From Coriobacteriaceae bacterium EMTCatB1 (GTDB taxonomy: Bacteria; Actinomycetota; Coriobacteriia; Anaerosomatales; Anaerosomataceae): a DNA stretch of 64,000 bases. Below the pieces are notes generated by a model that saw nothing but the letters and a program-made list of their open reading frames with translations, ran no database searches and was not told the DNA's origin. A program made the position numbers and the translations under genes. Positions 11,901 through 52,969 of the stretch are shown one piece after another. The stretch is from assembly GCA_001950395.1 (NCBI GenBank), contig BDLO01000001.1, positions 1,029,979-1,093,978 of the forward strand. The letters are read 5' to 3'. Within the stretch, counting starts at the first letter, position 1. Every line of letters begins with the position of its first letter.

Positions 11901-12202
11901 GACTCCCCTCTTCCCACGTGACGAGCAAGGTCCGATGTCGCCAGCGGGGACAAGGGGCGTTTCGTGATTCGGCGGTCTCGTGCCCCGGCACTGTCCTGCT
12001 GACGCGCTCTCGGCCGGTTGCGCCACTGGCTCGTCGCCGCCCAAGGCGCCCACGTCACGGGCAGCGAGTCATCGCCTCCGAACCGCAGACCGGCAGTGCG
12101 CCCCTCACGTCCGGACTCGCGGTGTGTGAATTGTGAGCGAAGTCACCGGATTAGTCAATAGTGACTTTGGTCACATAGCGGCTGTGAAGGCGATGGTGGG
12201 CG
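11901..12202. other. 302-base intergenic region upstream of the 37-heme gene
   Basis: No gene is visible here. The right third holds two GTGA-N6-TCAC inverted repeats, annotated separately. A weak -10-like CACAAT on the minus strand lies at 12130-12135. That would place a transcription start near 12123 and leave a leader of more than 200 bases before the ATG at 11900. The left two thirds are GC-rich with no evident structure. Confidence 0.5.
12133..12174. promoter_or_regulatory. two tandem CRP/FNR-type operators (GTGA-N6-TCAC)
   Basis: GTGAGCGAAGTCAC lies at 12133-12146 and GTGACTTTGGTCAC at 12161-12174. Both match the GTGA-N6-TCAC half-site arrangement recognised by CRP-like regulators. Their centres are 28 bases apart. 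Relative to a possible start near 12123, the upstream site would sit close to -44 (activating) and the other would overlap the -10 region (repressing). Which regulator binds is unknown. Confidence 0.5.
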
Positions 12203-42218: not shown

Positions 42219-43178
42219 TCAGGTCCCCAGAAGCTCGTCGGCCCGCTCAGCGCCACGGATCTCGGCGAGGATCTCGCCTGCGCCGCCGTCCAGAAGCTCG
42301 CGCACCATGCGCTCCCCGAGCGCGACCGGGTCCTCGGCCGGGCCCTCGACGTGCCTGCGGATTATCGTGGAGCCGTCGAGCGAACCGACCATCGCGTCCA
42401 TGACCATCGTCGCTCCCTCGATGCGAGCGTACGCGCCGATCGGCACCTGGCACCCGCCCTCGAGCCGCCGCATCACGACGCGCTCCGCGGTGACGCACTC
42501 CATCGTCTCCGGGTGGCCGATGCGCTCCATGAGGTGGCGCATCTCCTCGTCGTCTTCGCGTATCTCCACGCCGATCGCGCCCTGACCGACGGCGCTGATC
42601 ATCTGCTCGGGCTCGATGTAGTGGGTGATGCGGTCGGCCCAGCCCATGCGCGTGATGCCAGCGGCCGCGAGGATGACGGCGTCGACGACGCCCTCCTCAG
42701 CCTTGCGCATACGCGTATCGAGGTTGCCGCGCACGTCCACGATCTCCACGTCTGGCCTCAGGTTCCGAACCTGCGCGACGCGCCGCAAGCTCGAGGTGCC
42801 GACGCGCGCCCCTTCCGGCAGCGTGTCGAGCGTGTACCCGGCGCCGCTCACGATCACGTCGCGGGGATCGACGCGCTCGGGCATAGCGGCGATGAACAGG
42901 CCTTCGGGCAGCTCGGTCGGGACGTCTTTCATCGAGTGGACGCACATGTCGACTTCGCCGGCCATCAGCGCGACTTCGAGCTCCTTGGTGAACAGCCCCT
43001 TGCCGCCCACCTTCGCGAGCGGGACGTCGAGGATCTTGTCGCCCGTGGTCTTTATGACCTTGAGGCGCACCGGAAGCCCGGTTATCTCCTCGACCATCCC
43101 CTTGATGTGCTCGGCCTGCCACAGGGCGAGCTTGCTGCCCCTGGTGCCGATGACGAGCTCAGTGCGCTCAGCAGCCAA
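42219..43178 (-). CDS. hemC: hydroxymethylbilane synthase (porphobilinogen deaminase)
   Basis: A 319-residue enzyme that polymerises four porphobilinogens. Signatures are IGTRGSKLALWQAEHIK at the start, VHSMKDVPTELP, GTSSLRRVAQVR, GNLDTRMRK, and the dipyrromethane-cofactor cysteine in RLEGGCQVPIGAYA. Likely start: TTG at 43178, overlapping the hemA 3' end by 11 bases, with GGGAG about 7 bases upstream. No ATG or GTG fits the conserved N-terminus, and an upstream ATG would add about 35 residues of non-family sequence. Confidence 0.94.
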   Translation of the reverse strand: MAAERTELVIGTRGSKLALWQAEHIKGMVEEITGLPVRLKVIKTTGDKILDVPLAKVGGKGLFTKELEVALMAGEVDMCVHSMKDVPTELPEGLFIAAMPERVDPRDVIVSGAGYTLDTLPEGARVGTSSLRRVAQVRNLRPDVEIVDVRGNLDTRMRKAEEGVVDAVILAAAGITRMGWADRITHYIEPEQMISAVGQGAIGVEIREDDEEMRHLMERIGHPETMECVTAERVVMRRLEGGCQVPIGAYARIEGATMVMDAMVGSLDGSTIIRRHVEGPAEDPVALGERMVRELLDGGAGEILAEIRGAERADELLGT

Positions 43179-44541
43179 GTCCGTCTCCCGTCTCCTTCGC
43201 AGCGTGCGTGTCGTGGATCTCGCGGGCCTTGCGGTTGAGAAGCGAGCGAAGCAGCCCTGATCCGCGAGCGCCTTCGGCCTCATCCAGCCCGTAGAGCTCG
43301 CGCGCGGCCTCGACGACGAGGTAGCCGTCCGCCTCTTCGGCGGCCGCCTTGAGCCGAGCCGTCGGGCCGTGGAGCATCTTGTTGACGATCGCGCACGTGA
43401 GCGCGTCGATCGTGGCCAGCTCCTTCTCAGACAGCCCGCTCAGACGCTTGAGGGCGCGCTCGAGCTCGGCCTGGCGGATCGCCTCGGCCTTCGCGCGGAT
43501 TGCGGCGACGGTCGGAACGACCTCGAGGGACTCCTGCCACTTCAAGAACTCGGCGATCTCCTCTTCGATGATCGCCTCGGCGCGCTCGGCCTCGCGCATG
43601 CGCTCTTCCAGATTCGACTCGACGACGCCGTTCAAGTCGTCGATGTCGTACACGTAGACGTCAGAGAGGTCGTTCACCGCAGGATCGACGTCACGCGGGA
43701 CCGCGATGTCGATGAAGAAGAGCGGCTTGCCCCGACGGCCCCTCATCACCTCAGCGACGTCGGCCTTCCTCACGACGAAGTCCTGCGCTGCCGTCGAGGA
43801 GATCACGATGTCGGCCTCGCGCATGCACTCGAACAGCGAGCCGTACTCGATCGCGCGCCCCGAGAAGCGCTCGGCGAGCTCCACAGCCCGCTCGTAGGTC
43901 CGGTTCGCGACGAGCACGTCGACCGCCCCGTTGCACACGAGGTACTTCGCGGTGAGCTCGCTCATCTTGCCCGCGCCGATGATGAGCACCGTGCGGCCTT
44001 CGAGCGAGTCGAAGACCTTCTTGGCGAGCTCCACGGCCGCGTAGCTGATCGAGACCGCGTTCTCGCCGATGGCCGTCTCCGTGCGAACGCGCTTTCCCAC
44101 CTCGAACGACTGCCTGAACAAGCGGTTGAACGCTCTGCCCGTGGCGCCGTTCTCGAACGCGTGCTCGTAGGCCTCCTTGACCTGCCCGAGGATCTGCGCC
44201 TCGCCGATGACCATCGAGTCGAGCGACGACACCACGCGGAACAGGTGCCGCACGACCGCCTCGCCCTTGACGACGTACAGGTAGCGCACGAGGTCGTGGC
44301 GGTCGAGGTCGTGGTAGTCGGCCAAGAAGCCCCGGACCGCGTCCACGCCTCGATCGGCGTCGGAGGAAAGCGCGTAGATCTCGGTGCGGTTGCAGGTCGA
44401 AAGGATGACCGCCTCGGAGACGGCACCGTCAGAAGTGAGCTGAGAGAGCGCCTCCGCCTGCCGCGCAGCAGGGAAGGTGAGCTTCTCCCTCATCTCTATG
44501 GGCGCGGTCTTGTGGCTCAGACCGACGAGAACCAGGTGCAT
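43168..44541 (-). CDS. hemA: glutamyl-tRNA reductase
   Basis: A 457-residue NADPH-dependent enzyme that commits glutamyl-tRNA to tetrapyrroles. The N-terminal motif LVGLSHKTAPIEMREKL is followed by the catalytic Cys50 in ILSTCNRTEIY, MVIGEAQILGQVK, the NADPH site IIGAGKMSELTAKYL, and the C-terminal dimerisation helix with LERALKRL. First gene of the hemA-C-D unit. The Shine-Dalgarno sequence is poor. A foldable leader with a terminator-like hairpin precedes it, so expression is probably controlled after initiation. Confidence 0.95.
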   Translation of the reverse strand: MHLVLVGLSHKTAPIEMREKLTFPAARQAEALSQLTSDGAVSEAVILSTCNRTEIYALSSDADRGVDAVRGFLADYHDLDRHDLVRYLYVVKGEAVVRHLFRVVSSLDSMVIGEAQILGQVKEAYEHAFENGATGRAFNRLFRQSFEVGKRVRTETAIGENAVSISYAAVELAKKVFDSLEGRTVLIIGAGKMSELTAKYLVCNGAVDVLVANRTYERAVELAERFSGRAIEYGSLFECMREADIVISSTAAQDFVVRKADVAEVMRGRRGKPLFFIDIAVPRDVDPAVNDLSDVYVYDIDDLNGVVESNLEERMREAERAEAIIEEEIAEFLKWQESLEVVPTVAAIRAKAEAIRQAELERALKRLSGLSEKELATIDALTCAIVNKMLHGPTARLKAAAEEADGYLVVEAARELYGLDEAEGARGSGLLRSLLNRKAREIHDTHAAKETGDGLGC

Positions 44542-44575
44542 GTCGCCTGCTTCGTCACGCCTCTGCCTGCATCAC

Positions 44576-44680
44576 AAAAAGGGTCGCCCCCGCCGGTGCG
44601 GTGCGTTGTTGTTCAGGCAAGCAGGCCCGGCGGGGGCGGTATACGCCTCGCATCTGCGCACACGCTACGCTTGCCTGAAC
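44576..44680 (-). promoter_or_regulatory. hemA leader with interleaved inverted repeats and terminator-like hairpin
   Basis: In transcript order (minus strand) the leader has four segments: GTTCAGGCAAGC (44680-44669), CGCCCCCGCCGG (44638-44627), GCTTGCCTGAAC (44622-44611) and CCGGCGGGGGCG (44596-44585), followed by ACCC and TTTTT (44580-44576). Segments 1 and 3 are exact complements, and so are 2 and 4. The 2/4 stem with the T-run looks like an intrinsic terminator 35 bases before hemA. The 1/3 pairing traps segment 2 and could prevent it, or both may form a pseudoknot. Confidence 0.65.
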
Positions 44681-44686
44681 GCCCCA

Positions 44687-44716
44687 ATGCTACCACCCGG
44701 CACGCCCGTCGCACAA
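44687..44716 (-). promoter_or_regulatory. candidate hemA operon promoter
   Basis: On the minus strand TTGTGC (44711-44716) is followed by 18 bases and TAGCAT (44687-44692). The predicted transcription start is near 44680, exactly where the first arm of the foldable leader begins. This supports an RNA-level role for the leader. Confidence 0.45.
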
Positions 44717-44745: not shown

Positions 44746-45957
44746 TCATGCTTCGAGCCACGACTCGACGGGAAGGCGCAAGAACTCTGCCACGGGAATC
44801 CCGTCTCCGCCCACGAGCAGCGGACGCGCACCAGGGACTCGTTTCGTGAACGCGTCTAGCCCAGAGAGGCGGCCTGCGCGTCGGCCGCTCTTGACCTCGA
44901 TCGCCACGACGCGCTTGCCCTTGGCGATGACGAAGTCCACTTCCTCGTTGCCATCGCGCCACCAGTAGAGCTTCACGGTCCCTGCCGCTGCGGCATTCAC
45001 GAGATGGGCGCCCACCGCGGACTCCACCCAGTGGCCCCAGATCTCTGGGTCGCCTCGGACATCGTCGAAACGCGCATCAGCCATCGCCGATAGCAGTGCG
45101 TTGTTGTGCACCTGCAGCTTCGGACTGGAACCTCGCCTCCTCACCGGCTGCGTCGAGTACTTCTGCAGTCCGGAAAGCAGGCCGGCGCCGGACAAGAGGT
45201 CGAGATAGTGCGCCAGCGTCACCGTGTTGCCTACGTCTTGAAGCTGACCGAGCATCTTGTTGTAAGAGACGACGCTGCCGGAGTGCTCACAGCCCAAACT
45301 GAACAACCGTCTGAGCAAGGCAGGCTTCTCGATGCGCTGCAGCAACAGTATGTCGCGCGAGATAGCCGTCTCCACAAGAGAGTCGAGCACGTACGCTCGC
45401 CACCGCGGCTCGTCATGGATCAGCCATGCGGCTCCCGGATAACCGCCGAAATACACGAACTCATCGAACTCGACGTTGAAGGCAGACGCCATCTCATCGT
45501 ATGACCAATGGAGCACGTGAATCGTCTCGAATCGACCCGCCAAACTCTCGGAGACGCCGTGGACAAGGAGGACCGGGGTCGATCCCAGAAGGACTGTTTT
45601 CACGGAGGTCCCAGCCGACGTGTCCTCGTCCCACAGCCGCTTGACGGTCTCCGGCCAACCCGTGACCTTTTGGATCTCGTCCACGACGAGGATGCACGAG
45701 CCCTCCTTGCGGGCGTGGACGCGAGCGCGCTCCCACTGAGCCGCAAGCCACGCGCGGTCCTTCAGGGCCGGCTCGTCCGCTGATACCGATACGACAGGCT
45801 CGTCAACGATCGAGAGCACCTGTCGAACCATGGTCGTCTTACCTACCTGGCGCGGACCGACGATGACCTGGATGAGACGACGTGGCTCAGACAGCCGCTC
45901 GGCCAACACGCCGACCTGCGCGCGCCGATACGGCGGGATGTCGGGCAAAATGCTCAT
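44746..45957 (-). CDS. AAA ATPase with C-terminal DUF4143-type nuclease-like domain
   Basis: A 403-residue protein of the AAA_14/DUF4143 kind common in bacteria and archaea. Walker A is VGPRQVGKTT (residues 33-42), Walker B ILVVDEIQK and sensor LLGSTP. A winged-helix region follows, then a C-terminal restriction-endonuclease-like core (YWWRDGNEEVDFVIAKGKRVVAIEVKSG with D, E and K). Cellular role is unknown for the family. It interrupts the ccm and hem blocks and has its own palindromic operator-like sequence, so it looks like an inserted, self-regulated gene unrelated to heme. Confidence 0.85.
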   Translation of the reverse strand: MSILPDIPPYRRAQVGVLAERLSEPRRLIQVIVGPRQVGKTTMVRQVLSIVDEPVVSVSADEPALKDRAWLAAQWERARVHARKEGSCILVVDEIQKVTGWPETVKRLWDEDTSAGTSVKTVLLGSTPVLLVHGVSESLAGRFETIHVLHWSYDEMASAFNVEFDEFVYFGGYPGAAWLIHDEPRWRAYVLDSLVETAISRDILLLQRIEKPALLRRLFSLGCEHSGSVVSYNKMLGQLQDVGNTVTLAHYLDLLSGAGLLSGLQKYSTQPVRRRGSSPKLQVHNNALLSAMADARFDDVRGDPEIWGHWVESAVGAHLVNAAAAGTVKLYWWRDGNEEVDFVIAKGKRVVAIEVKSGRRAGRLSGLDAFTKRVPGARPLLVGGDGIPVAEFLRLPVESWLEA

Positions 45958-47866: not shown

Positions 47867-48550
47867 TCAGCCTCCTAGCCCGATCTTGAGCGCTTCGAGG
47901 CGCTCCTTGAGCTCTTCTTCCTTCAAGCGCAGCTGGTAGAACGCGTATCCCAGCATCAGCATCCCGATCTGGCCGACGATGAAGGTCACGAGCATCGGCG
48001 GCTCGAGCCCTCCGCTCTTGAACACGACCGGGTGCGTGCTCTGCACGACGCGCGTGATGAAGAACGAGATCGGCGCGTCGATGAACGCAAGGATGCCGAA
48101 CGCCGCCGCGTACGTCGCGCGGCGCTCCTCGTCCTCGACGGAGTTGCGCAGCACGAAGTACCCGATCACGAGGAGCGTCATGATGAAGTACGTCGTCAGC
48201 CGCGGCTCCCACTGCCACCAGACGTTCCACTCCACGCGCGTCCAGAGGATGCCTGTGGCCATCGTCAGCAGCACGAAGAAGAGCGTCACTTCCGTGGCGA
48301 TGCGCGCCTTGACGTCGAACTCCTTGCGCTTCGTCATCAAGAACCGCACGCCATAGAACGCCGTGAAGAAGAACACGAGGAACGACGCTTCGGCCACCGG
48401 CACGTGGAAGTAGAAGATCTTCTGCGCGAAGTCCACCCGTCCGTCCGGATACACGCTTGGCGGGGCCCAGAAGAAGGTCATGAGGAATGCCGCGGTAGTG
48501 AGGACCGCGCCGAGCACCAGCATGACCTCCGCGAGGTAGCCGCGCTTCAT
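47867..48550 (-). CDS. ccmC: heme handling protein CcmC (System I)
   Basis: A 227-residue protein with six membrane segments. The WWD heme-binding motif reads TRVEWNVWWQWEPRLTTYF near residues 103-121, flanked by conserved histidines in YFHVPVAEASF and near RVVQSTHPVVF. CcmC loads heme covalently onto CcmE outside the membrane with the CcmAB ATPase. The charged C-terminal helix (LRLKEEELKERLEALK) is cytoplasmic. It lies 19 bases after ccmB. Confidence 0.93.
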   Translation of the reverse strand: MKRGYLAEVMLVLGAVLTTAAFLMTFFWAPPSVYPDGRVDFAQKIFYFHVPVAEASFLVFFFTAFYGVRFLMTKRKEFDVKARIATEVTLFFVLLTMATGILWTRVEWNVWWQWEPRLTTYFIMTLLVIGYFVLRNSVEDEERRATYAAAFGILAFIDAPISFFITRVVQSTHPVVFKSGGLEPPMLVTFIVGQIGMLMLGYAFYQLRLKEEELKERLEALKIGLGG

Positions 48551-48569
48551 GCGGGACTCCTTCCTGCGC

Positions 48570-49274
48570 TCACGCTTCGATGACGAACTCGTACAGCCCG
48601 AAGGCTGCGAGCACCATTATGATATCGAATCCCGCGATCCAGCCCATCCAGTTCCAGAACGACGCCGTCGCGTCCGGACCGCCGATCACCGCCGCGAAGG
48701 TGGCGCCGACCGCCGCGCGAAGCAGCGGGTACTGCAGCGGCACGAACAGGACGGCGAGCATGATGTCCTTGCCGGTGGTGTTCACCGAGATGGTGGCGAG
48801 CAAAGTCCCGATTCCCGAGATGCCGATCGACGCGCCGACGAGCACGAGCGCGACCATCCACAGCGGCCCGCCGAACCCCGCGCGCCCCTGCAGGAAGAGG
48901 AATGCGAACACCGGCAGCGTGAGCGCCTCGACAACGAGCAAGAACAGCAGGTTGCCTGCGAACTTCGCGAGGAAGATCACCGGGCGGTCGATCGGCGCAA
49001 GCAGGAGCGCGTCCAGGCACCCCTGGTCCTTCTCGTGCACGAACGAGCGGTTGAGCCCGAGCATCGACATGAAGATGAAGGCCACCCAGATAAGCCCTGG
49101 CATCACGAGCCGCACGTCCAGCCCTTCGCCGGCCTCCACGAGCGCGATCTGGTAGACGACCATCGTGAGGATCGCGTACAGCCCCATCGAGGTAAGCATC
49201 TCGCGAGTGCGGAGCTCCATGACGATGTCTTTGCGCAGGATCGCCTTGAACTGGCGCCAGGAGAGCGAGCCCAT
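48570..49274 (-). CDS. ccmB: heme exporter membrane subunit CcmB (System I)
   Basis: A 234-residue protein with six membrane segments. Near the start is the ATPase-contact region SWRQFKAILRKDIVMELRTREM. The stretch RSFVHEKDQGCLDALLLAPIDRPVIFLAKF is typical of the CcmB family. It pairs with CcmA. The ATG at 49274 shares a base with the ccmA stop (TGATG), so the subunits are translationally coupled. Confidence 0.92.
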   Translation of the reverse strand: MGSLSWRQFKAILRKDIVMELRTREMLTSMGLYAILTMVVYQIALVEAGEGLDVRLVMPGLIWVAFIFMSMLGLNRSFVHEKDQGCLDALLLAPIDRPVIFLAKFAGNLLFLLVVEALTLPVFAFLFLQGRAGFGGPLWMVALVLVGASIGISGIGTLLATISVNTTGKDIMLAVLFVPLQYPLLRAAVGATFAAVIGGPDATASFWNWMGWIAGFDIIMVLAAFGLYEFVIEA

Positions 49275-50002
49275 CACGACACCCCCATGCCGACGACCGA
49301 CCGGTAGGTGGCGCGGAACGCGCGCTCGTCGATGTCCTCGCGCTTCTCGAAGAGCACGACGCGGCCTTGCGCGAGGATGAGCGCGTGCGTGCACAGCTCG
49401 AGGCCCTTCTCGAGGTCGTGGCTCACCATCACGAAGGTGTGGTGCTGTCTGATGCTCGCGACGAGCGAATCGAGGATGTCCATCGCGTGCGGGTCGAGAC
49501 CCGAGTACGGCTCATCGAGGAAGAGCACATCTGGCCTATGCAGCAGCGCCCGCGCGATCGACAAGCGCTGGAGCATGCCGCGCGAGAAGGTCCTGGTGGT
49601 GTCGAGACGACGGTGGTCGAGCTCCACCGCCTCGAGCAGCTCCCGAACCCGCTCCTCGGGACGCTCCACGCCGTACATCTCGGCGAAGAAGAGCAGGTTC
49701 TCCTCGGCGGTGAGGTCCGGATAGAGCAGCGGGTTGTGGCTGATGAGCCCGATGCGTGAGCGCAGCTCGACGGCGCCTTCAACCACGTCCAGACCGCACA
49801 CGCGCGCGCTCCCGCTTGAAGGAGCCACGAGCGTCGTGAGCACCTTGAGCAGCGTGGTCTTGCCGGCCCCGTTCGGGCCGAACACCGAGAGGAACGCCCC
49901 TTCCGGGACCGAGAAGCTCACACCGTCGAGCGCCTTGCGGACGCCGAAGGCCCGCGTCAGATCGCGGACCTCGACGGCAGGCTGATCGACCGGCTCGGGC
50001 AT
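49274..50002 (-). CDS. ccmA: heme exporter ATPase CcmA (System I)
   Basis: A 242-residue ABC ATPase. Walker A is FGPNGAGKTT (residues 41-50), the Q-loop region is LISHNPLLYPDL, the signature is altered to FSRGMLQRLSIARAL (SRGM replacing SGGQ, as common in CcmA), Walker B is LFLDEPYSGLD and the H-loop is VSHD. With CcmB and CcmC it releases heme-loaded CcmE. Seven bases follow ccmF. Confidence 0.93.
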   Translation of the reverse strand: MPEPVDQPAVEVRDLTRAFGVRKALDGVSFSVPEGAFLSVFGPNGAGKTTLLKVLTTLVAPSSGSARVCGLDVVEGAVELRSRIGLISHNPLLYPDLTAEENLLFFAEMYGVERPEERVRELLEAVELDHRRLDTTRTFSRGMLQRLSIARALLHRPDVLFLDEPYSGLDPHAMDILDSLVASIRQHHTFVMVSHDLEKGLELCTHALILAQGRVVLFEKREDIDERAFRATYRSVVGMGVS

Positions 50003-50009
50003 CGCGTCC

Positions 50010-52064
50010 TCACGCCGCCTGGAGCTGCCGCTTCGGCCACGACGCGAGCGCCGTGCCGACGATCGTCACGATGAATCCGGCCCACACCCACCACTGCATC
50101 GGGAAGAACTTGACGGTCACCGACGCCTGGCCGTTCTGGTCGACGCCGTGGAACGAGACGAAGACGTCTTTGAGCGGCTCCTGGATGAGCGCGACCTTCT
50201 GGGTGCTCTGATTCTTGCTCTGCAGCTGTATCGGGAACACGATCTTCGGCTTCAGCACACCGATGTCGCGAGCGCCCCGCTTGGCAGCAAGCTCCAGCGT
50301 GTACACCACGTCGCCGTTCGGTTCCGTCGTTTCCTTGAGCTCGCGGACAGCGAAGGAATACCCGTGCGCTTCTGCGACCGTCCCCGGCTTCGTCTCCACA
50401 GAAAGCTCGTGCGTCTCCACGAACATCGTCGAACCTACGAGGCCGACGAGGATGATCCCCATGCCGAGGTGGGTGAGGTAGCCGCCCGATTGCGTCCGGG
50501 CCTTCGTCATGATCCGACGGAGCGCCGTGAAGAAGCTCTCGCCTCGAGCGGCCGCCCTCTTGCGCGCGCCGTCGTAGAACAGGTACAGCGGCAGCGCGAT
50601 CGCGAGCGCTGCGGTGAGCAGCCCGGACACGGCGATGAAGTGGTGCCAGAACGCGCTTTCGCCTGCGGGCTGGTAGTACGGCAGCATCCCGTTGAAGAAG
50701 ATCGCCATCAGTCCCGCGAACACGGCCAGCCCTCCTGCGAGCGGCCACTTCGCGCGCTTCCAGAACTCCGCCCAGCCCTGGCCGCCCCACGACAGGATCG
50801 GGCAGACGGTCATCACGAGGATGTAGAAGATGCCGAGCGGCCTGGCCAGGAGGTTGTAGTCGTCGATGCCGTACGTCTTGCCGCCACCGATCCACGCAGG
50901 CAGCGACTGCGCGAGCGTCATGTACGCAATGAGGAAGGTCGCGAGCAGCATGATGAGGTTGTTGAAGTAGTACGAGCCCTCTTTGGAGATCACGCGGTCG
51001 AACGCGTCGTTCCCTGCCAGAGCGTCACGCCGCCAGACGATGGCCCCGACCATCACCACGAGCGAACCCACCATCATCGAGAGGAACAACCAGAACGACA
51101 GCGGATCCTGCTCGAAGGCGTGCACCGACTGGACGATGCCCGAGCGCGTGATGAAGGTGCCCAGCAGCACCACGACGAAGGTGACGGCGGACATGAACAT
51201 CGTCCACCCTTTGAAGCCCTCGCGCCGGCGGTACACCGTCATCGAGTGGATGAGCGCGACGCCGGTGAGCCACGGGAGAAGCGACGCGTTCTCAACCGGG
51301 TCCCACGCCCAGTAGCCGCCGAACGCAAGCTCGATGTACGCCCAGATCGCGCCGAGCCCGATGCCGACGCCGAGCATCAACCACGAGAAGACGGTGATGC
51401 GGTCGGACATCTGCACCCACCGCTTCGAGGTGTCGCCGAGGAACAGAGCCGCCAAGGCGAACGCGAACGGCACGGCCAGACCTGCGTATCCGATGAACAG
51501 CGTCGGCGGGTGTGCCACCATCGCCCAGGTCTGGAGCAGCGGGTTCATGGCCGCCTCGATGAGCAGACGGCCCGTCTGCGGATCGAGGTACTCAGGCGGC
51601 AGCAGCTTGAACGGGTTGTTCAGCGGGATGAACAGCGCCGCCAGGAAGAACAGCTGGATGAAGTTCAGCACGCCTGTCGCCGCAAAGCCCAGGTCGTCGT
51701 CGTGCTTGAGCGCCTTGTAGCCCACGTACGCAGCGTAGATGGCGATGAGCCACTCCCAGAACAGCAGCGAGCCCTCGCGACCGGCCCATATCCCCGATAC
51801 GCGGAACAACCACGCCCAGGGACCGACAAGAGTGGGGTGGTTGTACGCCACGTACTCCAAGGTGAAGTTCTCGCCGAGGAATGCAGCGACGATGAGCACC
51901 ACGGCGAGCGTCGTGAACGCGAGCGTCCCGTACGTGAGGTACACCGCGAGAGGGCGAGCCCCACCCCTGGCGGGCGTACGCGTCATCGCCGCAGACACGA
52001 TGGACCCCAACGCGCAGATGCTCGCGAAGGCCAGAAGAAGGTTGCCCAGGGTGTCGAGCCCCAT
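50010..52064 (-). CDS. ccmF: cytochrome c heme lyase subunit CcmF (System I)
   Basis: A 684-residue polytopic protein (about 15 membrane segments). The WWD motif reads GAIWAYIELAFGGYWAWDPVENASLLPWL near residues 235-265, and conserved histidines occur in MVAHPPTLFIGYAG and ALIHSMTVY. The C-terminal large periplasmic domain is present. CcmF transfers heme from CcmE to CXXCH apocytochromes. No CcmH or CcmG gene is visible nearby, fitting a reduced System I. It lies 51 bases after ccmE. Confidence 0.94.
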   Translation of the reverse strand: MGLDTLGNLLLAFASICALGSIVSAAMTRTPARGGARPLAVYLTYGTLAFTTLAVVLIVAAFLGENFTLEYVAYNHPTLVGPWAWLFRVSGIWAGREGSLLFWEWLIAIYAAYVGYKALKHDDDLGFAATGVLNFIQLFFLAALFIPLNNPFKLLPPEYLDPQTGRLLIEAAMNPLLQTWAMVAHPPTLFIGYAGLAVPFAFALAALFLGDTSKRWVQMSDRITVFSWLMLGVGIGLGAIWAYIELAFGGYWAWDPVENASLLPWLTGVALIHSMTVYRRREGFKGWTMFMSAVTFVVVLLGTFITRSGIVQSVHAFEQDPLSFWLFLSMMVGSLVVMVGAIVWRRDALAGNDAFDRVISKEGSYYFNNLIMLLATFLIAYMTLAQSLPAWIGGGKTYGIDDYNLLARPLGIFYILVMTVCPILSWGGQGWAEFWKRAKWPLAGGLAVFAGLMAIFFNGMLPYYQPAGESAFWHHFIAVSGLLTAALAIALPLYLFYDGARKRAAARGESFFTALRRIMTKARTQSGGYLTHLGMGIILVGLVGSTMFVETHELSVETKPGTVAEAHGYSFAVRELKETTEPNGDVVYTLELAAKRGARDIGVLKPKIVFPIQLQSKNQSTQKVALIQEPLKDVFVSFHGVDQNGQASVTVKFFPMQWWVWAGFIVTIVGTALASWPKRQLQAA

Positions 52065-52115: not shown

Positions 52116-52787
52116 CTACTTCTCGTTCTCGTCGACCGCCACGTCAGTGGCGACGAACACGCCGTTCATCAGCTCGCCAGAGATGACCATCTTCGCGCCA
52201 GACGTGGCACCCTGCGGCATGGCGCCGGACCACGAGACGTCGACGGTCTCGCCGCCCTTCGAAGTCGTGCCGAGCGTGAAGCGCGGCTCGGTGCCCGAGG
52301 GCTTCACGCTGCCCTCGACCACGTAGCCCGTGATCTTGACCGGCTTGCCTGCTAGTTGGCTCTTCAGGAGCGCATCGACCGTCAACGCGTCTCTCGCCGA
52401 CGCGTACTTGCTGGGGCACTGCGTGATCAGCTGTTTCGCCTCGATGGTCTGGTCTTCGCCCACGATGCCCGTCACGATAGCGACCGTGCCGTCGCCGAAC
52501 GCGCTCGGAACCGGGCCGTTCCACACGACCTTGATCGTCGGGCCGTTGGCGTCGTCCATCTGGCGGATGGCGAAGGTGAGCGGCTTGGCGTCGGGCGTCC
52601 ACGACCCGGCCACCACCGGGCCTTGCACCTGCACCTGCTTGCCGACGAGCGAAGGATCGGACACCACCTCGGCGACCGACTTCTTGTACGCGCCGCCTTG
52701 CGTCATGACGAAGAGCACGAACGCTCCGACGACGACCAAGATGAGCACTGTCACGCCGACCAGGCGCTGCTTGGCTCGCTTGTTCAA
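52116..52787 (-). CDS. ccmE: cytochrome c maturation protein CcmE, CXXXY variant with a second OB-like domain
   Basis: A 223-residue protein. An N-terminal membrane anchor (about residues 9-28) precedes an OB-fold heme chaperone domain (about 45-122). The covalent heme ligand is Cys124 in QCPSKY (CXXXY) instead of the common HXXXY. This cysteine form is known from archaea and some bacteria whose Ccm system lacks CcmH (System I*). Past the motif, where typical CcmE ends, a further 75 residues (VKITGYVVEGSVKPSGTE to MNGVFVATDV) look like another OB-type barrel. First gene of the ccm unit, behind a foldable leader. Confidence 0.88.
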   Translation of the reverse strand: MNKRAKQRLVGVTVLILVVVGAFVLFVMTQGGAYKKSVAEVVSDPSLVGKQVQVQGPVVAGSWTPDAKPLTFAIRQMDDANGPTIKVVWNGPVPSAFGDGTVAIVTGIVGEDQTIEAKQLITQCPSKYASARDALTVDALLKSQLAGKPVKITGYVVEGSVKPSGTEPRFTLGTTSKGGETVDVSWSGAMPQGATSGAKMVISGELMNGVFVATDVAVDENEK

Positions 52788-52879
52788 CGGGCCTCACTCC
52801 ATTCGTGTGCCGAACGTAGACCGGGCGAGATGGGCTTCGCGAAGCGCTCGCTTCGCGCGAGAAGCACCGTTCGTCGCCT

Positions 52880-52959
52880 GCTTGCCTGAACAGGTGGATA
52901 GTACCACCTGGCGCCGTCCCCGCCAACGCAGGGGCGGCTGTCCGTCCACTCAAGCAAGC
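52880..52959 (-). ncRNA. candidate three-way-junction RNA in the ccmE leader
   Basis: Read as minus-strand RNA, GCTTGCTTGA (52959-52950) pairs completely with TCAGGCAAGC (52889-52880), including one G-U pair. They enclose two hairpins: GCCGCCCC/GGGG-A-CGGC (52938-52931 with 52921-52913) and CAGGTGG/CCACCTG with a 6-base loop (52910-52891). The G-U pair is a pair only in RNA of this strand. The closing helix has the same sequence as the helix in the hemA leader. It lies 92 bases before ccmE and I match it to no known riboswitch. Confidence 0.55.
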
Positions 52960-52969
52960 GGCATGCCGC

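Follow-up and report, generated by a model that had tools for sequence, protein, structure and literature searches.

The leader of hemA in the window, as the whole stretch of 64,000 nucleotides analysed here is called, carries a conserved hairpin which is probably a base-pairing regulatory RNA, originating either in the hemA leader or at the ccm 3' end and acting on the mRNA of ccmE as well as on other mRNAs; a copy of its target is present in cis in the hemA leader. Comparison with related genomes shows a conserved structure, conserved complementarity at +1 of ccmE, variation that tolerates wobble pairs and joint loss of the hairpin and its sites, and from these sequence patterns we infer a separate short RNA, its pairing in cells and an effect of that pairing. 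The original prediction that heme synthesis and heme attachment share a common regulator is well supported, with an RNA favored over a DNA operator, while the structure it assigned to the ccmE leader did not hold.

The starting point is a 17-mer, GCCTGCTTGCCTGAACA, which occurs on the plus strand at 52876-52892 and as its reverse complement at 44610-44626, just as had been noted. Since hemA and ccmE both lie on the minus strand, their mRNAs carry complementary sequences: the copy in the ccmE mRNA is the complement of that in the hemA mRNA and not an identical sequence. The two copies have opposite senses, and the earlier idea that one and the same helix closes both leaders had to be abandoned. 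Read as mRNA, ccmE contains 5'-GUUCAGGCAAGCAGGC (element A) and hemA contains GCCUGCUUGCCUGAAC (element A'), with an A of its own farther upstream; the loop of the hemA hairpin presents GCUUGCCUGAAC (A') and the predicted +1 of the ccmE mRNA its complement GUUCAGGCAAGC (A). The window contains GTTCAGGCAAGC three times, against 0.34 expected with up to one mismatch allowed. The 1.84 Mb genome holds only four copies, every one within a gene leader: two (A and A') in the hemA leader, one (A) in that of ccmE, and one (A) just ahead of the Shine-Dalgarno sequence of an unlinked gene whose product is membrane-anchored (hereafter the envelope gene). A genome-wide search over 41 genomes of the same order returned 107 exact matches to the 12-mer against 14 for its reversed control; the random scatter named beforehand as a refutation was not seen. 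A REP-like dispersed repeat was considered and rejected on account of the four genome copies, all of them located in leaders.

The hemA leader comprises the following features.

43168-44541, minus strand: hemA, encoding glutamyl-tRNA reductase (Pfam GlutR_N, Shikimate_DH and GlutR_dimer)
44575-44680, minus strand: predicted RNA element of the hemA leader (match to covariance model R1 scoring 113 bits, with a single copy per genome; 35-sequence alignment A2)
44585-44596, minus strand: B', 3' strand of the hairpin (pairing analysis)
44601-44605, minus strand: C', CGCAC, pairing with C (alignment and pairing analysis)
44611-44622, minus strand: A', GCUUGCCUGAAC, hairpin-loop sequence complementary to ccmE A
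44627-44638, minus strand: B, 5' strand of the 12-bp hairpin
44657-44661, minus strand: C, GUGCG, pairing with C'
44669-44680, minus strand: A, GUUCAGGCAAGC, at the predicted +1 of hemA, pairing in cis with A'
44687-44692, minus strand: -10-like hexamer TAGCAT, 6 nt before A (spacing of 6-7 nt in 31 of 36 relatives)

These elements follow one another in the order A-C-B-A'-C'-B'. The B-B' helix (12 bp) is paired in 100% of the cells of the alignment and C-C' (7 bp) in 90%, each with compensatory changes at three pairs, and A-A' (8 bp) is paired in 99.6% of cells with almost no variation; the exact partner foreseen for the motif in hemA is present, at 44669-44680. The A-A', B-B' and C-C' pairings cross one another and may form a pseudoknot or represent alternative structures. 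In the nested fold the B hairpin forms and CCUGAA is exposed in its loop. Across the 35 aligned sequences A' (GCTTGCCTGAAC) does not vary, whereas A is variable past its eighth base, so that the constraint on A' exceeds what pairing with A explains. In hemA and ccmE alike a -10-like hexamer precedes A by 6 nt and a -35-like hexamer lies a further 17-18 nt upstream, a promoter-like spacing which places A at the predicted +1 of both genes. An attenuator based on an intrinsic terminator was rejected, a T-run being found in only a few of the 35 hemA leaders. No conserved intrinsic terminator occurs 3' of the hairpin in these 35 leaders of the window's order, and release of a short RNA there would therefore need processing. 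A search against Rfam gave no convincing match to the hemA leader element. Elsewhere in the window, a cyclic di-GMP-II riboswitch aptamer (12003-12087, minus strand) scores above the Rfam gathering threshold.

The ccm cluster and the leader of its first gene are laid out as follows.

47867-52064, minus strand: remaining ccm cluster (ccmF, ccmA, ccmB-like gene, ccmC)
52116-52787, minus strand: ccmE, with a TTG start (Pfam CcmE, 1.6e-26)
52864-52868, minus strand: C-like GGUGC of the ccmE leader (comparison with relatives)
52876-52891, minus strand: A of ccmE, at the predicted +1, with complementarity to the hemA loop over 16 nt
52898-52903, minus strand: -10-like hexamer TACTAT, ending 6 nt before A

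The A arm of ccmE begins 6 nt past TACTAT and should therefore start the transcript. Among relatives, TANNNT ends 6-8 nt upstream of A in all 63 ccmE leaders tested, and GUUCAGG(C/U) is found in 72 of 74 intact ccmE leaders; these leaders were located through the protein and not through the motif, so that the count is unbiased by it. A stretch resembling GCGGTGCGT, complementary to C', is present in 44 of 61 ccmE leaders (10.4 in shuffles), mostly at +20-25, and by its sequence the ccmE 5' end is similar to the 5' arm of hemA. A TTGCTC or TGCTCA box, possibly a separate regulatory site, recurs at similar distance in 14 of 63 ccmE upstream regions of relatives (1.4 in shuffles), about 60-75 nt ahead of +1.

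The ccmE leader had further been proposed to fold into a three-way junction. The partner arm invoked (about 52950-52960) lies upstream of the predicted promoter and outside the transcript of that promoter, and the pairing is not conserved, all 10 of its positions being paired in only one of 36 leaders. The best pairing averages 7.31 against 7.15 in shuffled sequences, at the level of chance, and the junction was set aside as what looks like a chance fold.

Variation at the ccmE site is informative on the nature of the partner. In the ccmE leaders bearing the motif the core GUUCAGG is invariant, which puts pairing of the core itself beyond the reach of a covariation test. Past it, the counts are 61 C and 11 T at position 8, 71 A and 1 G at position 9, 49 A, 21 G and 2 others at position 10, 47 C, 16 T and 9 others at position 12, and 41 A, 21 G and 10 others at position 13. 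Of 91 substitutions facing a G or U of A', 70 still allow a pair (this and the preceding counts ignore shared ancestry), and variation past position 7 mostly appears to follow RNA pairing with a fixed A', chiefly through G-U wobbles. A change on the other side is seen in two genomes (G044 and G064), where A replaces G in A' opposite U8 of ccmE and gives U-A in place of the U-G of their sisters, in a single event. An exception is family f12, in which a change next to the A' core (pairing position 13) has no matching ccmE change in G115 and G117. Loss is also coordinated: G038 lacks the hairpin at hemA, the ccmE site and the envelope-gene site together, and its family mates G098 and G104 retain the hairpin and the ccmE site. 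A further genome, G045, supplies the other intact ccmE leader without the motif, and the covariance model finds no hairpin in it, its hemA leader lying outside the stretch read. An exposed region of a structured RNA is thus complementary to mRNA leaders in a conserved manner and, with the exception of f12, variation in the target tends to preserve the pairing, as expected of a small RNA.

Within the order sampled (little-studied actinobacteria, probably Anaerosomatales, Coriobacteriia), the covariance model detects exactly one hairpin per genome in 65 of 69 genomes, and the hemA leader carries the element in 38 of the 39 genomes in which hemA was located by protein. Three other families of the class (f17, f20 and f21) contribute nine genomes with diverged copies (E-values of 9e-9 to 5e-4). 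In most f20 genomes the hairpin precedes hemA and the A strand is absent there, with A still present at ccmE; in one of them (G044) the hairpin stem overlaps the likely Shine-Dalgarno sequence of hemA. Three related genomes, of f21, have the hairpin in the 3' UTR of the ccm operon, after ccmC and a ccmD-like gene, and not at hemA. There, a single ccmEFABC(D) operon of G057 carries A at its 5' end and A' at its 3' end, and a terminator-like hairpin follows in G057 and G061. The contigs of G051 and G055 end short of the expected position of the hairpin. In the window the ccm cluster and hemA share a strand, with hemA coming after, so that one intergenic place is at once downstream of ccm and the leader of hemA. 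An ATPase-like gene (P-loop motif GPRQVGKTT; 44746-45957, minus strand) separates an SDR-like gene from hemA in the window; the hemA leader of several relatives is directly preceded by the SDR-like gene.

The envelope gene carries the exact 12-mer between a small hairpin and its Shine-Dalgarno sequence in 26 of 34 leaders located by script; the site is lost or altered in the remainder, some of which retain the hemA hairpin. Its product is membrane-anchored, with a weak sub-threshold match to MecA_N (NTF2-like). Sites confined to single genomes precede an adenosylhomocysteinase-like gene (G023), a gene for a second membrane-anchored protein (G029) and, exactly matched and ahead of a likely Shine-Dalgarno sequence, an HtrA-like serine protease gene (G066, L377:1501-1600). 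These three, named from sequence, are candidate targets, and the last hints at an envelope-related target set. In four genomes the 12-mer follows directly after a TACGCT box (L087, L128, L133 and L135), with no clear conserved gene downstream, and may perhaps belong to another RNA.

Other explanations of the complementarity were weighed against a regulatory RNA acting in trans. Pairing might take place inside one long mRNA, between the hairpin, as part of the 3' region of the ccm transcript, and the 5' end of that molecule, in the manner of icaR, with no need of a free small RNA. The arrangement in G057 speaks for such a mechanism, and the hairpin does follow the ccm cluster on the same strand in the window's order; yet the same 12-mer stands in the unlinked envelope gene, promoter-like signals lie directly ahead of the hairpin in the window's order and an extra ATPase gene intervenes in G000, and this account is considered unlikely, if a serious one. 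It is quite improbable that the hemA leader acts only in cis, as a pseudoknotted riboswitch-like sensor (perhaps of heme), and that ccmE shares the A and C arms through the same factor or ligand. Although all six elements of the hemA leader are conserved and ccmE has A and a C-like stretch, ccmE is devoid of A', C' and B and could not adopt the same fold; in addition, hemA of f20 is without the A strand, the f21 hairpin lies away from hemA and the envelope gene has A without C.

A DNA-binding protein reading GTTCAGGC as an operator at the hemA and ccmE start sites would account for the presence of A at both promoters with fixed spacing, and loss of such a protein would also explain the joint loss in G038. 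This reading, very improbable in our judgment, is at odds with variation that obeys RNA pairing rules, with the maintenance of A' inside a covarying RNA hairpin and with the absence of the site from f20 hemA promoters; nor is the promoter position fixed at every gene, the envelope-gene site lying about 20 nt downstream of the -10 hexamer and adjoining the Shine-Dalgarno sequence. Chance, or a dispersed repeat, can scarcely be credited. In favor of it are the shortness of the motif and the count of the 9-mer GTTCAGGCA in the genome itself, which is close to its control (20 vs. 16); other sites of the 9-mer there occur at control frequency, mostly within long reading frames. The excess of the 12-mer over its control, however, falls at specific leaders, the hairpin is single-copy and the conservation tests already contradict this explanation.

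Under the preferred reading, a base-pairing regulatory RNA, the hairpin loop UGCUUGCCUGAAC would pair with the very start of the ccmE mRNA, GUUCAGGC(AAGC), and with an identical 12-mer adjoining the Shine-Dalgarno sequence of the mRNA for the membrane-anchored protein. With the ccm cluster on one side of the hairpin and hemA on the other, either the hemA 5' leader or a ccm transcript, at its 3' end, could be the source of the RNA, and a short RNA would be freed from one or the other. Pairing at the extreme 5' end would most likely change the stability of the ccmE mRNA, an effect for which RoxS-yflS provides a precedent, and pairing next to the Shine-Dalgarno sequence would change how the envelope gene is translated. 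In the hemA leader, the A and C arms, folding back on the loop, would act as a competitor in cis against ccmE. By these means heme supply and cytochrome c maturation would be kept matched.

Parts of this scheme have counterparts in known systems. In Bacillus subtilis, pairing of RoxS with the 5' end of the yflS mRNA impairs RNase J1 (PMC5419742), and the pairing lies at the extreme 5' end of the target as proposed for ccmE; RoxS, however, is encoded by an sRNA gene of its own, for which the portion of that account drawn on here mentions no connection with hemA or ccm. Vsr217 arises from the 5' UTR of Vibrio malK and is proposed to act in cis and in trans (PMC8265627), as suggested here for a leader of a metabolic gene, but it concerns other genes in another lineage, and the copy of the target within the leader is a feature of hemA. 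OppZ and CarZ of Vibrio cholerae are autoregulatory sRNAs derived from 3' UTRs as RNase E products (PMC7398697); the f21 hairpin likewise lies in the 3' UTR of an operon whose first gene bears the target, whereas the target site of this hairpin is at +1. In icaR of Staphylococcus aureus the 5' and 3' UTRs pair within the transcript at the Shine-Dalgarno sequence (PMC3868564), and the two transcript ends are complementary as in the f21 arrangement; in contrast, the ccmE site is at +1 and an unlinked gene also bears it. No earlier report of the element was found in literature searches conducted mostly outside subscription journals.

A broader model, put forward tentatively and with somewhat less than an even chance of being right in full, is that of an RNA circuit extending across the class. 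A single hairpin would have shifted over evolutionary time between the ccm 3' UTR and the hemA 5' leader, and would regulate ccmE by way of the 8-12 bases that open the ccmE mRNA. The hemA leader, with a pseudoknot that holds a target copy (the A and C arms), would combine the roles of regulator and decoy, and possibly that of sensor as well. If true, heme supply and cytochrome c maturation would be linked post-transcriptionally in a lineage for which the literature searched describes no such regulatory RNA, and a regulatory RNA would have kept its target while switching its host gene, residing in the ccm 3' UTR or in the hemA 5' leader. For cultured relatives a simple rule would follow, namely that GUUCAGGC at +1 marks a target.
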